Positions 35,480 to 40,498 of a stretch of DNA of 41,763 nucleotides are shown piece by piece (within the stretch, counting starts at the first letter, position 1; each line of letters starts with the position of its first letter). The DNA comes from Lachnospiraceae bacterium. GTDB lineage: Bacteria > Bacillota > Clostridia > Lachnospirales > Lachnospiraceae. The stretch is taken from the NCBI GenBank assembly GCA_017469405.1, contig JAFUGL010000040.1, positions 1-41,763 of the forward strand, read 5' to 3'. A program made the position numbers and the translations under genes. The notes below the pieces were generated by a model. That model saw only the letters and a list, made by a program, of their open reading frames with translations. It was not told the origin of the DNA and did no database searches.

Positions 35480-36436
35480 TTATAATCCCGAATCTGCTAT
35501 AACTGCCTTAAGAGTATCTGCTGACGCTTTAAGTGCTGCCATTTCATTTTCATCAAGTTCAATCGGAAGGAGTGTATCAACACCCTTTTCACCGACTATA
35601 GCCGGCATGGAAAGACATACATCCTCAAGTCCGAACTGACCTGTCATAAGAGTGGAAACAGGAAGTATCGAACGCTCATCTCTTATGATAGCCTCACATA
35701 TTCTCTTGATTGCCATACCTATACCATAATAGGTTGCACCCTTTTTATCGATTATCTCATAAGCAGCATTTTTAACCTGCTCTGCAAGTCTTCTTGTCTC
35801 GTAGTCATGATCCGTAAAGCCTCTCATCTCGCATACCTTGTGGATTGGTACACCGGATACATTTGCAGAAGACCATGCAGCAATCTCGGAATCTCCATGC
35901 TCACCGATTATGAATGCATGGATACTACGGCTGTCAAGATCAAGATGCTCACCGAGAAGATACTTAAATCTTGCAGTATCAAGAACTGTACCTGAACCGA
36001 TTACTCTTTCTTTAGGGAAGCCCGAAAGCTTAAGAGCAGCATAGGTAAGCACATCAACCGGATTGGCAACGATAAGGAGTGTACAATCCTTATTGTACTT
36101 AACTACTTCAGGGATAATTGACTTAAATATTCCTACATTTTTCTTAACAAGGTCAAGTCTTGTCTCTCCCGGCTTCTGAGCAGCACCGGCAGTTATTATT
36201 ACGATTGATGCATCTGATATATCTGAATAATCTCCTGCGATTATCTCGACAGGCTTTGCAAATGGGATTCCGTGGCTTATATCAAGCGCCTCTCCCTCTG
36301 CCTTGTCCTTATTGGCATCAATAAGAACTATATCTGAAAAAAGACCTGACTGCATGAGTGCATACACTGAAGCAGAGCCTACAAATCCGCAGCCTATCAT
36401 CGCACATTTTCTACTATCTAATTTCTTCTTTGACAT
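35480..36436 (-). CDS. ldh: L-lactate dehydrogenase
   Basis: A 318-residue NAD-dependent enzyme that reduces pyruvate to L-lactate and regenerates NAD+ in fermentation. The Rossmann site is AMIGCGFVGSASVYALMQSG and the NAD-choosing Asp lies in DIVLIDANKDKAEG. The substrate loop GAAQKPGETRLDLV has Gln, which marks lactate rather than malate dehydrogenase (Arg). LIVANPVDVLTY, GSGTVLDTARFKYLLGEHL and the proton-relay His in FIIGEHGDSEIAAWS follow. All active-site residues are present, and length is standard. A good AAGGAGG lies upstream. It is transcribed alone, with a hairpin after it. Confidence 0.97.
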   Translation of the reverse strand: MSKKKLDSRKCAMIGCGFVGSASVYALMQSGLFSDIVLIDANKDKAEGEALDISHGIPFAKPVEIIAGDYSDISDASIVIITAGAAQKPGETRLDLVKKNVGIFKSIIPEVVKYNKDCTLLIVANPVDVLTYAALKLSGFPKERVIGSGTVLDTARFKYLLGEHLDLDSRSIHAFIIGEHGDSEIAAWSSANVSGVPIHKVCEMRGFTDHDYETRRLAEQVKNAAYEIIDKKGATYYGIGMAIKRICEAIIRDERSILPVSTLMTGQFGLEDVCLSMPAIVGEKGVDTLLPIELDENEMAALKASADTLKAVIADSGL

Positions 36437-36545
36437 GGTTTTATACCTCCTTGGATTTTAAATATCTGAAGTCTATTTATATATCAGATATATTAACCTG
36501 ATTGGTTTTATAATAACTTTATATTAATATGTTAGCAAGTATTTT

Positions 36546-36758
36546 TTAGTATTCTTTGGTAATTTTTTCGACACCGTATTCTTTCATAAACTGTTTTAAG
36601 TCAGCATCGGTTCGGATTAGTGTGACATCATTGAATTTACCTGTGGTTTTATCTTTGAAGCCGGCTACCTGCTCACCGGTACATATGCTGCATCTAAGAA
36701 CCGGTATCTGATTTTCTTTATCATAGGTTTTGGAATTCTTTTTATTTTTGAAAAGCAT
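36546..36758 (-). CDS. 70-residue Cys-containing protein of unknown function
   Basis: A short protein with a basic N-terminus (MLFKNKKNSKTYDKENQIP), a central PVLRCSICTGEQVAGFKDK with a CSIC pair, and an acidic C-terminal half (DADLKQFMKEYGVEK). Similar small proteins occur in Lachnospiraceae and are often given unreliable names such as aspartate dehydrogenase; no dehydrogenase fold could fit in 70 residues. The C-x-x-C and following G-E-Q-V-A-G-F-K-D look like a metal or redox site joined to a glutaredoxin/ArsC-like end, which is only a guess. AAAGGAAG precedes the start, and it lies 14 bp after the ATPase, so the two are probably co-transcribed. Confidence 0.75.
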   Translation of the reverse strand: MLFKNKKNSKTYDKENQIPVLRCSICTGEQVAGFKDKTTGKFNDVTLIRTDADLKQFMKEYGVEKITKEY

Positions 36759-36772
36759 TTATGGCACTTCCT

Positions 36773-37810
36773 TTATACACTCCAGTTTTCATTAACATAT
36801 TCATCAAAAAATGGTAATACAAATTTTACATATCCATATTGTTCACCATTTATTAACCCTTTTTTTATTAATCTTTTTCTGTATGGATTAAATTCATTTG
36901 TTGAAATACCAAGGTAATTTCTGATATCTACTATTTTTCCTGAAGGCGCATTGGCAATTCCAAACAGTATCTCACGATCCTTATTGGATAATTCAGCCCA
37001 TATCTTATCATAGGAATATTCAGATACATAATTTTTATATTTATTTATTACCTTTCTGAAATCTCCATTATTTTCCCATGCAAAATATCCCAAAACCTGA
37101 AAAGCAAATGAATAGCCATTAGTTAGTCCGGACATTTCAGTTGCATCTTCATCATTTATCTTAAGCGTATTTTTATAGTTATATGCTATTTCTTTTTTAT
37201 TCAACGGATTTAGATAAATCTTTGGTGCTCTATATAAAAAAGTAAGATTTTTTTGATTTTGCAATTCATCTATATTCTCAAACAAGCCTGTCATAAGGAG
37301 ACAAATCGGAAGATTCTGTCTGACAAATATTTGAAAGGCACTGGCAAATTCTTTCATAGATTTATTATTTACAACTTCATCTATAGTTACAAGTACCTTT
37401 TTCTTATGGTTTTTCAGTTCCTCCATCATTTTAGTTATAGCAAGTTGAATATTGGTTATAGGAGCAGTTCCTCCAACCTCTAACCCAAAGCCCCAAAATG
37501 AAAGATTTATTTTAGCTTTTTTAAATATTTCTGCACGAGAATTCTCACTTGCAAGGTGTGATGCAAGATTTTCAAGTAAATTTGATTCTGAGCTTAATTC
37601 TATCACAATCCAATCTTTATCCTTCTTAAGTTGATTGGAAATCTCTGTCATAAACACCGTTTTGCCGGAACCTCTTACTCCGGTTATCATATATATTTGT
37701 TCCGATGGACTTTCATAACTAAAATTTTGTATTATTTCTTCAGCTTCAGCAGCTCGACGAATATACTGCTCCGGTTCACGCCCAAAAAGTAATGAATAAG
37801 GATTTTTCAT
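36773..37810 (-). CDS. STAND/AAA-like ATPase with C-terminal winged helix
   Basis: The 345-residue protein belongs to the family of stand-alone ATPases also seen as archaeal-type ATPases. Walker A is MITGVRGSGKTVFMTE near residue 42, and Walker B is KKVLVTIDEVVNNK near residue 137. LPICLLMTGLFENIDEL (sensor-like) and GYSFAFQVLGYFAW, typical of the family's second ATPase part, follow. The last 70 residues (KDREILFGIANAPSGKIVDI, RKRLIKKGLINGEQYGYVKF) form a winged helix that could bind DNA. GGGAGG is upstream. Its promoter lies inside nine repeats of ACYAGTAAA, so self-control through the winged helix is plausible but inferred. It is co-transcribed with the 70-residue Cys protein. Confidence 0.8.
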   Translation of the reverse strand: MKNPYSLLFGREPEQYIRRAAEAEEIIQNFSYESPSEQIYMITGVRGSGKTVFMTEISNQLKKDKDWIVIELSSESNLLENLASHLASENSRAEIFKKAKINLSFWGFGLEVGGTAPITNIQLAITKMMEELKNHKKKVLVTIDEVVNNKSMKEFASAFQIFVRQNLPICLLMTGLFENIDELQNQKNLTFLYRAPKIYLNPLNKKEIAYNYKNTLKINDEDATEMSGLTNGYSFAFQVLGYFAWENNGDFRKVINKYKNYVSEYSYDKIWAELSNKDREILFGIANAPSGKIVDIRNYLGISTNEFNPYRKRLIKKGLINGEQYGYVKFVLPFFDEYVNENWSV

Positions 37811-37826
37811 ATTGATTTTCCTCCCG

Positions 37827-37942
37827 TTTACTAGTTTGCAATTCGTTTACTGGTCTTTACTACTTTTTACTGGTTTGCATTTCTTTTACTAGTCTTTACT
37901 ACTCTTTACTGGTTTGATTTTATTTTACTGGTCTTTACTGGT
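37827..37942 (-). repeat. Nine phased ACYAGTAAA repeats upstream of the ATPase gene
   Basis: On the minus strand the sequence A[CG][CT]AGTAAA occurs nine times between 37942 and 37827. Successive starts are 10, 19, 10, 10, 19, 10, 10 and 19 bp apart, a 39-bp higher-order unit close to whole helical turns. The units are followed by G, A or C, and the long spacings carry A-rich filler (AAATCAA, AAATGCAA, AATTGCAA). They cover the promoter and leader up to the GGGAGG site. Confidence 0.92.
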
Positions 37943-37950
37943 TTTGTCAA
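37922..37950 (-). promoter_or_regulatory. Promoter of the ATPase operon, overlapped by the repeats
   Basis: On the minus strand TTGACA (37945-37950) and TAAAAT (37922-37927) are 17 bp apart. The first repeat lies in the spacer, and the second overlaps the -10 element, so binding there would block RNA polymerase. Confidence 0.75.
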
Positions 37951-37953
37951 TAT

Positions 37954-38002
37954 AATTTAGCCGTATAACTCATTATTATATAATAAGTCATACGGCTAAA
38001 TT
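37954..38002. terminator. Long hairpin between acylphosphatase and the ATPase promoter
   Basis: A 13-bp perfect stem, AATTTAGCCGTAT and its complement (37954-37966, 37990-38002), has a 23-nt loop that contains the palindrome TTATTATATAATAA. It sits right after the acylphosphatase stop and may terminate that transcript, although no T-run follows. Confidence 0.5.
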
Positions 38003-38019
38003 TATCCTTTATCTATCTA

Positions 38020-38301
38020 CTAATACTCCTCACCATGTCTTACCTTAAAGCTTCTTTCATCCTCTACCAGTGGGATTGTCTTGCTGTCAATCCTGTCAAT
38101 CATTACAAAAGTTCCTTTTCCTATCATGGCGACTAGCTTGTCTATTTCCTCTTCCTGTCCCTGGGCCTCCATGATAACCGAACCATCCCAATTATTCATC
38201 ACCCAGCCTGTGAGCTTAAGTCCCTGGGCAGCATAATAAGCGCGGTATCTGAAGCCTACGCCCTGGACTCTTCCTATAAATGTTAATCTTTTTCGTACCA
38301 T
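38020..38301 (-). CDS. acyP: Acylphosphatase
   Basis: A 93-residue enzyme that hydrolyses acyl phosphates such as 1,3-bisphosphoglycerate or carbamoyl phosphate. It has the phosphate loop FIGRVQGVGFRYRAYYAAQG near residue 8, with the catalytic Arg in GFRY, and the catalytic Asn in GWVMNNWDGSVIMEAQG near residue 36. The length is standard. It lies 40 bp downstream of the HD-GYP/GGDEF gene on the same strand and may be co-transcribed with it. Hydrolysis of small phosphodonors next to a signalling gene is common context, but no link is proven. Confidence 0.95.
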   Translation of the reverse strand: MVRKRLTFIGRVQGVGFRYRAYYAAQGLKLTGWVMNNWDGSVIMEAQGQEEEIDKLVAMIGKGTFVMIDRIDSKTIPLVEDERSFKVRHGEEY

Positions 38302-38341
38302 ATATCACACGTCCTAACTATATTAACTACTTAAAATCATA

Positions 38342-40498
38342 TTAATTCTTCGACAAATCCGCCGTATCATAATGCACCGAAAACTCATTTTTATCATAGG
38401 TTCTAAGGAACTCTGTCATGATACGATTTATAACACTTTCGACTTCAGCCAAAGTAAGGTTCATAAGAAGTATCGCAAACTGTGTACTGCTGTACTTGGT
38501 TATAACATCCACATTACGAATAGAATTAACAACCGCCTTTTGCAAAAGTTCCATAACCCTGTCCTGTTCCTCAAGCGATGCCTTGGCACCCTTAACCTGC
38601 GATACGGTAAATAATGCAATCTGAACCTTCATCTCATTACGCTCTGCAAGGGAACTGATAAATTCATACATCTTTCCAAACTCCGGATAGGCAGCTACCA
38701 AACCGCCCTTATAATGCTCACGGTTTTGTATAATTTCAACAAGCTGCTTTAAATCGGCAGCCGGATCCGAAGGCTCATCATTTTGATATTCCAACGCCTG
38801 ATGGCTGTAGTATGTATTGCCTCCGCGCTGCTTCGCAACATAGAGAGCTTTGTTTGCATTTTCATAAAGGAACATAACCTTATCTTTTTCGGTAATCACC
38901 TCTGATATACCGATTGAAACCGAAAATTTACTTACACGTTTATCTGTTTCGGCAAGATTTTTTATACGGTCGATAAATATTTCCGCAAGCTTCTCAGCTT
39001 CGTTAGCATCTTTTAGCTCCGGGAAATATGTAACAAATTCATCTGCTCCGAAACGAGCTATAATCTGTTTTTCCGAAAGACCTCTTATCTGCTCTACCAT
39101 CTTTTTAAGATAAATGTCACCTATGATAAATCCGTCCGTATCATTTATTCTGTGGAAATGATCTATATCAAATATAACGATACAGCCGGTTCCATTTTTT
39201 GATATGGCATTTTGTATTGCATGCTTTCCTTTATCACGTCCGTATGCACCTGTTAAGTCATCCAGCTCGTCAGATGTATCGCTTCCCTTATCTTCCGCAA
39301 TATCTATAACTCTTGACAAAATGGTTGATGTCTGCTGTACCAGTTCTGTTTCAGCATCCGGATTAATCTTAGGAAGTCTGTCCTCATTTATAAGCTTTAT
39401 CATTACATTTGTAATTTCTTCATCCCACTGTGTACCGCATCCTTTTTCAAGTTCGAACAATATTTTGTCTTTAGGAAGATGCCTTCTGTATACACGATTT
39501 GAAGACATGGCGTCATAAGCATCCGCTACTGCAATTATACGTGCAAGGTACGGTATATCATCACCGGATATACCCTCGGGATAACCTTTTCCATCTATAC
39601 GCTCATGGTGATATTTTGCACCTATTTCAAGTCCCGGAATCATATCGATATCCTTAAGAATCTCTGCACCTGCCAAGGTATGACCTTTCATTATCTGGAA
39701 CTCTTCATTGGTAAGCTTACCCGGTTTATTTAAAACAGAATCCGGTATACCTATCTTGCCTATATCATGCAAAAGACCTATTATTCTTATATTTGAAACC
39801 TCAACATCAGACATACCAAGCTCCGCAGCAATCGTAGCTGAATACTCAGCAACACGCCTTGAATGACCTCTTGTGTACTCATCCTTCGCATCGATAGTAT
39901 TGGCTATGGTGGTTATGGTCTGCATGGTCATACGTTCAATATCTTTATTTCTTTCGGATAATTCTTTATTATATTTTTCATTGGTTTTATGAATCTCGTC
40001 ATAGAGTCTGGTAGCAAGATAAGAGCCTAAAAAGCAAAGGAATAAAAGAGCGAGCTGAATCTCTATGTCCTTGCTGTTTTCTGTTGTTATCTCACCACGA
40101 TTATATCTTAGAAGTATAGAAATCAAATTAAGTACAGTGGCACAGATACCGGTCACCATAATTATTATCGGTTGATGGAAAAGCACCAACAGTGAAAGCA
40201 TTGGCAGAATATAAGAAAATACCATTGTCGTGCTTCCGGTTATCATAACGAAGATGTACATTATAAAATAACCGCCAACAATAGTATATCTTAACGAATA
40301 TCTATCCGGTTGTTTCAGATATAGTATCAGAACAATTATGGCAGGCACTGCCGTAACAAGCATGAAAACAAAGAGGTAGCTTATGCTTCTTTGACCTTTT
40401 ACAACCTCCATGGTATAGCTTATAAAAAGAATAAGCACAATCAACATCCAGCCATACACCAAATTACGATTTATTTTTTTTACGTGTGAATTGTTCAA
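38342..40498 (-). CDS. Membrane HD-GYP phosphodiesterase with degenerate GGDEF domains
   Basis: The frame opens with TTG at 40498, preceded by AGAGGGGG at an 8-nt distance; no ATG fits. The 718-residue protein has five to six membrane helices (residues about 15-170), then an HD-GYP domain and two GGDEF-like modules. HD-GYP: HSRRVAEYS, IGLLHDIGKIGIPDSVLNKP and YHHERIDGKGYPEGIS, with all metal residues present, so c-di-GMP hydrolysis to GMP is expected. The first GGDEF-like module has FDIDHFHRINDTDGF and ARFGADEFVTYFPEL, with Ala in place of the second Gly. The last 130 residues resemble a second GGDEF with no signature left. It precedes acyP on the same strand. Confidence 0.9.
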   Translation of the reverse strand: MNNSHVKKINRNLVYGWMLIVLILFISYTMEVVKGQRSISYLFVFMLVTAVPAIIVLILYLKQPDRYSLRYTIVGGYFIMYIFVMITGSTTMVFSYILPMLSLLVLFHQPIIIMVTGICATVLNLISILLRYNRGEITTENSKDIEIQLALLFLCFLGSYLATRLYDEIHKTNEKYNKELSERNKDIERMTMQTITTIANTIDAKDEYTRGHSRRVAEYSATIAAELGMSDVEVSNIRIIGLLHDIGKIGIPDSVLNKPGKLTNEEFQIMKGHTLAGAEILKDIDMIPGLEIGAKYHHERIDGKGYPEGISGDDIPYLARIIAVADAYDAMSSNRVYRRHLPKDKILFELEKGCGTQWDEEITNVMIKLINEDRLPKINPDAETELVQQTSTILSRVIDIAEDKGSDTSDELDDLTGAYGRDKGKHAIQNAISKNGTGCIVIFDIDHFHRINDTDGFIIGDIYLKKMVEQIRGLSEKQIIARFGADEFVTYFPELKDANEAEKLAEIFIDRIKNLAETDKRVSKFSVSIGISEVITEKDKVMFLYENANKALYVAKQRGGNTYYSHQALEYQNDEPSDPAADLKQLVEIIQNREHYKGGLVAAYPEFGKMYEFISSLAERNEMKVQIALFTVSQVKGAKASLEEQDRVMELLQKAVVNSIRNVDVITKYSSTQFAILLMNLTLAEVESVINRIMTEFLRTYDKNEFSVHYDTADLSKN

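Follow-up and report, generated by a model that had tools for sequence, protein, structure and literature searches.

ATPases that bind DNA and regulate their own genes are known as individual cases, for example DnaA and Orc1-2. Two other kinds of system resemble the one described here in part. MalT-type STAND activators are STAND-like ATPases that oligomerize on repeated boxes, as we propose below, and plasmid iterons, parC/ParR and the omega heptads are tandem direct repeats lying over the promoter of their binder, again as proposed here. The MalT-type activators differ in their LuxR-type HTH and sensor repeats and in activating other operons. The iteron and centromere systems come with replicon or partition partners and are bound by a different kind of protein; for the ATPases studied here we found no conserved partner gene among 518 neighbour ORFs. 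DnaA differs in its DNA-binding domain and its box, and is an essential initiator present once per genome. DnaA is reported to be an ATPase that is cooperative on clustered boxes, forms filaments with ATP and autoregulates via sites in its own promoter (PMC6727663).

The closest described likeness is the archaeal Orc1-2, a Sulfolobus DNA-damage regulator. It is an AAA+ ATPase with a winged helix that binds a short motif in the promoter of its own gene, and binds it strongly in complex with ATP (PMC9738581). Our system shares with it the combination of an ATPase with a winged helix (predicted in our case) and a short motif on the promoter of its own gene. Orc1-2 differs in being a global regulator that uses an ANTTTC motif on several promoters, and the excerpts of its source mention neither a tandem array nor a private word for each paralog (PMC9738581). 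Nor does Pfam place our ATPase with Orc1/Cdc6; its sequence family is that of the PF01637 ATPase_2, AAA_14 and novel STAND NTPases. In searches of an open-access library we found no description of upstream arrays accompanying this family.

The window, by which we mean the whole analysed stretch of 41,763 nucleotides from a Lachnospiraceae bacterium, carries one such ATPase gene, with a promoter and an array of short repeated words ahead of it:

37945..37950, minus strand: -35 box TTGACA, 2 bp ahead of word 1 (from the sequence)
37922..37927, minus strand: -10 box TAAAAT, overlapped by word 2 (from the sequence)
37827..37942, minus strand: array of operator words, A[CG][CT]AGTAAA nine times, on a lattice of 9.75 bp in which single slots are left out (from the sequence and family-wide conservation)
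36773..37810, minus strand: gene of a 345-aa P-loop ATPase, PF01637 ATPase_2 (Pfam 42.6 bits, cut-off 33.2)
37655..37681, minus strand: Walker A, GVRGSGKTV, residues 44-52 (R46, G47, G49 and K50 invariant over 38 members)
37376..37393, minus strand: Walker B, LVTIDE, residues 140-145 (D144 invariant over 38 members)
36776..37012, minus strand: C-terminal winged-helix region, residues 267-345 (HTH_24 profile in relatives)
36866..36904, minus strand: putative recognition helix, residues 303-315, STNEFNPYRKRLI (co-variation with the word)
36887-36889, minus strand: N308, the strongest single co-varying residue (co-variation scans)

All nine words, on the minus strand, match ASYAGTAAA exactly, starting at 37827, 37846, 37856, 37866, 37885, 37895, 37905, 37924 and 37934. 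The window holds one more match elsewhere; the mean expected by chance is 1.76, and the largest number reached in 100 shuffles is 5. In order of transcription the steps between words are 10, 19, 10, 10, 19, 10, 10 and 19 bp, a pattern of three words followed by one empty slot (39 bp). The -35 and -10 boxes are separated by a spacer of 17 bp; word 1 lies inside it, word 2 reaches into the -10 box and the other words occupy the 5' leader. These observations agree with a first-pass annotation of the DNA, which had claimed nine repeats with this spacing and direction and a TTGACA-17-TAAAAT promoter under the first two. Its claim that all copies lie near one face of the DNA does not hold. The best period of the array is 9.75 bp, with a vector length R of 0.99; at 10.5 bp per turn R is 0.15, and the copies spread across most of the circle. 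The same is seen in the 102 arrays of the family that have at least six copies, where mean R is 0.94 at 9.75 bp and 0.36 at 10.5 bp. Same-face phasing on B-DNA (10.5 bp per turn) is thus ruled out by the 9.75-bp period, both in the window and across these arrays. No RNA family of Rfam matched positions 36400-38400.

The genome that contains the window (G000; 2.75 Mb in 138 contigs) holds four further members of the ATPase family, 37-62% identical, one of them cut by a contig end. Arrays lie directly upstream of these paralogs too, built of the words AACAGTAAA, AACTATAAA, AGTTATAAA and AATTATATAA, so that the five members have five words. The survey found members in 11 of 37 genus genomes, in 59 of 397 genomes at family level and in 11 of 391 at class level, ten of the class positives lying in the same family; the family and class surveys scored at most five candidates per genome, and their counts are lower bounds. 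The largest number of members in one genome is six. Most of the surveyed genomes may be incomplete, and start codons were picked by script. We collected 133 ATPase genes, 127 of them encoding 325-400 aa and the remainder being fragments. The set includes orthologous pairs and one duplicate contig (L069/L092); seven homologue matches (six partial genes and one broken by a stop) and three further loci were left out.

In 124 of the 133 genes the upstream region has a significant array, one that beats every one of 100 dinucleotide shuffles. The count of upstream regions with at least five words in register is 116 of 133; for control windows of the same loci it is 5 of 1299, and for shuffles 9 of 13300. 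The part of the earlier interpretation that ties the array to the ATPase family is therefore upheld. The annotation had named homologs lacking such repeats as evidence against it: the relatives mostly carry arrays, made of other words, and nine have no significant one. These nine are the fragments L064 and L138, L117 (138 bp of upstream sequence) and the full-length L076, L081, L125, L129, L134 and L137; the array score of L134 was reached by one of 100 shuffles.

Words vary by clade (CAGTAAA, CTATAAA, GTTATAAC, GTATATA, GTTGTGGA and others) and the 10/19 spacing is constant. Steps of 10 bp (441) or 19 bp (164) make up 605 of 765, as counted by a chain builder that permitted steps of 8-11, 18-21 and 28-31 bp, and in many family arrays two words are followed by one empty slot (29 bp). 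A TTGACA-like -35 box with at most one mismatch, together with a -10 box, stands in fixed register with word 1 in 52 of 130 arrays. Repeats of other kinds were also seen at two loci: in L120 (G546:C9), self-matches reveal long tandem tracts with a unit of ~52 bp flanking the ATPase gene on both sides, and in L127 five TGTCCGGATAAAGTCAT-type repeats ~19-20 bp apart lie ~1.3 kb upstream of the gene. We also considered a rule by which members within one genome would exclude equal words. At a similarity above 0.8, equal words were found in 1 of 105 pairs against 2.4 expected, which is not significant; in the genus only, in 0 of 47 against 2.9 (P = 0.03); at a similarity of 0.7 the whole set gave 7 against 5.1, in the opposite direction. 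The rule was rejected.

The association extends to plasmids. Homologues were found by tblastn in 51 plasmid records, and we inspected the 130 bp upstream of 17 of them, which are 23-37% identical. Arrays of three to six words, unmatched by any of 60 shuffles, precede eight of the 17, which come from four phyla. Their hosts are Pseudobutyrivibrio (Lachnospiraceae), Lactobacillus crispatus, Arthrobacter (two), Cellulosimicrobium, Citricoccus, Protochlamydia and Pseudomonas oryzihabitans. Four others are borderline (reached by 2-3 of 60 shuffles) and five show nothing of the kind. Two plasmid words, TTTCACC and GACTCAC, are unlike -10 boxes. As to a phage origin, we found one weak phage record, and viral contigs gave no relative by protein or profile query in pattern-limited scans. 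A word-pair scan of viral contigs returned 93 stretches, all of which were checked; four or more words in register were present in L235 and L252. The latter, a viral contig of 165 kb (IMG/VR 3300021431_000079), has five AGTAAA-type words at steps of 10, 19, 10 and 10, with no ATPase in the 1.7 kb examined. In L235, near 2650-2710, six contiguous 10-bp repeats of AGTAAATGAC type lie at the end of a phage ORF and probably belong to a different system.

Repeats in an AT-rich promoter might arise by slippage, as duplicated -10 boxes that no protein reads. Many of the words do look like -10 boxes, and the copy number differs between close relatives (five in L013, eight in L037). However, the 10/19 lattice is constant across very different words, including the TATA-free GTTGTGGA and the two plasmid words above, and the word co-varies with the ATPase, as described below. 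We regard slippage as a scarcely credible explanation.

PF01637 is matched by 34 of 38 diverse members at E <= 0.01, some of these below the Pfam cut-off, and over the same 38 members the residues R46, G47, G49, K50, D144, F191, R194, G232, Q238, G241, L314 and G326 are invariant. Ten pairs of relatives, of which one is saturated, gave dN/dS ratios of 0.00-0.11. The members are under purifying selection, and the low ratio indicates that the ATPase does something. Among the 24 Pfam matches of the window ATPase at E <= 0.1 there are no DnaA domains, no Cdc6/Orc match, and no LuxR-type HTH or sensor repeats like those of the MalT-type STAND proteins. Its solved-structure relatives by sequence are three generic P-loop proteins. 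Comparison with the anti-phage defence ATPases of PADLOC gave no full-length match and nine partial ones (best E 5.8e-06); membership in a defence system was dropped, as the matches are partial throughout.

Profiles in relatives point to a C-terminal winged helix in this family. A winged-helix match to HTH_24 is found at E <= 0.01 in 6 of 38 members, and PF13412 HTH_24 lies above its cut-off in two of ten relatives, L045 (residues 278-324) and L031 (282-328); the window ATPase itself has no winged-helix match in Pfam. The assignment rests on sequence profiles because fold predictions, with three near-identical sequences as input, failed to confirm that fold. The full-length model has a pLDDT of 45, its best-scored stretch being helix 304-316, the third of three C-terminal helices. 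The model of the isolated C-terminal domain (pLDDT 53) is strand-rich, with no winged helix visible.

If the ATPase reads the array, the positions that contact DNA should change together with the word beyond what relatedness explains. We ran a partial Mantel scan on 100 non-redundant genes out of 112 with five or more words, correlating word distance with the distance in each of 338 eight-residue windows of the protein after removal of the distance over residues 1-265. Word distance was register-free and covered 18 columns; relatedness was controlled by regression, by strata and on one tree. The six best of the 338 windows all fall within residues 303-315, with r up to 0.25. Permuting the labels 500 times, a procedure that disregards the tree, never gave a value as high as the scan maximum. 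When the pairs are split into three strata by divergence, the highest-scoring windows of every stratum fall in residues 299-315, with starts at 299-308. For the most closely related pairs r is 0.64; where divergence is greatest, the Walker A windows (r 0.26-0.27) approach the recognition helix (0.30).

A discrete check used a tree from which the winged helix had been excluded. The AGTAA word undergoes nine changes on it, and eight of these share branch and direction with a change of residue 308 to or from Asn; the maximum in 1000 simulations was four. Residue 308 was first spotted by eye, before a blind trait scan in which N308 ranked first of 2548 position-residue traits on both measures. Next for shared changes are S36 and A93, outside the helix, and then T304 and P309, within it. 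Exceptions exist: ten genes have N308 without AGTAA, and one has AGTAA without N308. Pairwise mutual information between residues and bases in 50 anchored words was too noisy, and its best pair lies outside the helix. Our main finding, which was out of sight for the first-pass annotation, is that the word differs between relatives. As the array is tied to the ATPase family and its word co-varies with this helix, the ATPase itself is the likely reader of the word upstream of its own gene.

We give a probability of roughly 0.7 to the reading in which the ATPases bind their own arrays on the 9.75-bp lattice and repress their own promoters, with nucleotide setting the assembly of the oligomer. The C-terminal winged helix of each ATPase would read a private word of ~8-10 bp, which is present in a run of typically 4 to 14 head-to-tail copies extending from the -35/-10 spacer across the 5' leader. 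Several subunits would bind directly and cooperatively, side by side on the lattice, with single slots left empty after every two or three words. The bound subunits would shut the promoter, and the ATPase would thereby measure and limit its own amount. Control of the promoter is probably by repression: with words 1 and 2 in the -35/-10 spacer and on the -10 box, and the rest in the leader, a repressor fits better than an activator. Nucleotide state probably governs assembly; this ATP control we infer from the invariance of the Walker residues and the behaviour of Orc1-2 and DnaA. Since word and recognition helix have changed together repeatedly, several members share one cell, each with a different word.

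Any further job of the ATPase might be the more important one. The cognate ATPase could bind the array chiefly as an assembly site for another task on DNA, initiator-, partition- or iteron-like, with autoregulation a by-product. Such a role would account for words that are too many and too tightly packed for simple repression, and for homologues on plasmids of several phyla; a P-loop ATPase joined to a winged helix is also the layout of some initiators, such as Orc1. Yet the surveyed members are mostly lone genes, with no conserved partner gene among 518 neighbour ORFs within 1.5-2 kb, single neighbours not all having been named, and the arrays sit on the promoter and leader of the ATPase's own gene. 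We consider this alternative unlikely.

In the window, the neighbours of the ATPase gene and its promoter are the following:

36546..36758, minus strand: gene of a 70-aa Cys protein, 14 bp past the ATPase stop codon, a resident host gene (from the genus survey)
37960..37996, minus strand: terminator-like hairpin separating the acylphosphatase gene from the ATPase promoter, outside the unit (read by eye)
38020..38301, minus strand: acylphosphatase gene, the upstream neighbour, outside the unit (from sequence and comparison)

The Cys protein contains a CSICTGEQVAGFKD stretch and has no match in Pfam, NCBIfam or PHROG. The first-pass annotation had counted it as part of the ATPase unit. Its gene, however, is present in 29 of 37 genus genomes and in 17 of the 18 good ones, against 11 of 37 for the ATPase. 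In G024 the acylphosphatase gene is followed ~100 bp later by the Cys gene with neither array nor ATPase between them, an empty site. Being far commoner than the ATPase and present at this empty site, the Cys protein is no partner of it; its gene may be co-transcribed with the ATPase gene in the window. Across the family, neighbouring genes are mostly co-directional with the ATPase gene (88 of 107 upstream, 86 of 121 downstream). In the site comparisons that follow, neighbour genes were named by eye unless stated.

Comparison of sites between genomes indicates that ATPase members come and go at the same places. One such site is flanked by a YhcC-like gene and a response regulator. There, G000 and G008 have a AACAGTAAA member and then two AAAGTATAAA words; G020, G014 and G016 have a AAAGTATAAA member and then four or five AACAGTAAA words; and in G024, G004 and G023 the ATPase is absent and two or three words are present. 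In G008 and G014 an ATPase with a AATTATGAA-type word precedes a HepS1-like gene, where G020 has a solo array. The G020 array, found by eye near 1980 of L345 (G020:C27), is of AATTATGAA type but degenerate, and occupies the promoter region of that gene.

Solo arrays of AACAGTAAA type occur in G018 (six words), G830 (five), G730 (seven) and G448 (five). Two more stand right before a cobA-like gene, with four words in G035 (L168, G035:C11:62913) and five in G006 (L181, G006:C1:1176198), the difference in copy number being one 19-bp unit. An exact ACAGTAAANNACAGTAAA pair is found in 8 of 397 family genomes, and its reversed control in 3 of 397. The pair lies at ATPase promoters in G000, G584 and G786, in the solo arrays of G830, G730 and G448, within a coding frame in G642, and in G526 in an open frame just before a tetrapyrrole-methylase-like gene (L226, G526:C17:21887). 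The pattern AGTTGTGGNNAGTTGTGG, which fits few known arrays of that type, was found in none of the 397 genomes. The G448 array (L225, G448:C28:2965-3010) lies ahead of ORFs that by eye resemble AbiEi/AbiEii-type toxin-antitoxin genes, and none of the five members found in G448 has its exact word.

Arrays in genomes without a cognate ATPase go beyond the needs of plain autoregulation and count against our preferred reading. They would be expected if a separate host-encoded protein bound the arrays and the ATPase gene were merely its target: no family member was found in G006, which is a single contig, or in G035 at E <= 0.001, or in G830 at E <= 1e-15, and all three have solo AACAGTAAA-type arrays. 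But the word tracks the predicted recognition helix of the ATPase at every level of divergence tested, and with up to six members per genome a host would require as many readers as there are words. We therefore hold a host-encoded reader to be very improbable.

The same sites bear on the possibility that the gene is a one-gene mobile element, with the array mainly a place of insertion or excision. Its patchy presence in the genus and family surveys, the empty site in G024, the solo arrays elsewhere, and the one site at which two different members alternate between genomes, with words of the other's type behind each, would all fit such an element. On the other hand, we noticed by eye no terminal repeats or target duplication at the compared sites, and no recombinase is a conserved neighbour among the same 518 ORFs. 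Lateral transfer and recombination in the flanks would be enough to move the gene. A relic in G024 (G024:C12), where an array adjoins the last 40-60 residues of an ATPase, is apparently an internal deletion, from which it follows that solo arrays can come from plain deletion. An element of this kind seems to us quite unlikely.

Self-regulation by the ATPase through its own array would mean that one design of autoregulated ATPase has apparently been re-specified many times while its operator lattice stayed constant, and that a recognition code for this winged helix could therefore be readable from sequence. It would offer many presumably orthogonal pairs of regulator and operator, and the odd 9.75-bp lattice would be a direct clue to an oligomer that wraps or twists DNA. 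The genes form an overlooked, mobile-looking family on the chromosomes and plasmids of several phyla. Tentatively, and at somewhat less than even odds, we picture them as widespread single-gene mobile 'self-addressed' ATPases, each with a private address on the 9.75-bp lattice, in which protein and address are re-specified together, letting several coexist in one cell, and the promoter can be left behind. If this is true, the promoter and array that remain after loss of the ATPase would serve the next host gene, as with the HepS1-like gene in G020, the response regulator in G024 and possibly the cobA-like genes in G006 and G035. The family would then serve as a natural laboratory for the co-evolution of proteins and operators, and its genes would be promoter-donating elements of a new kind.
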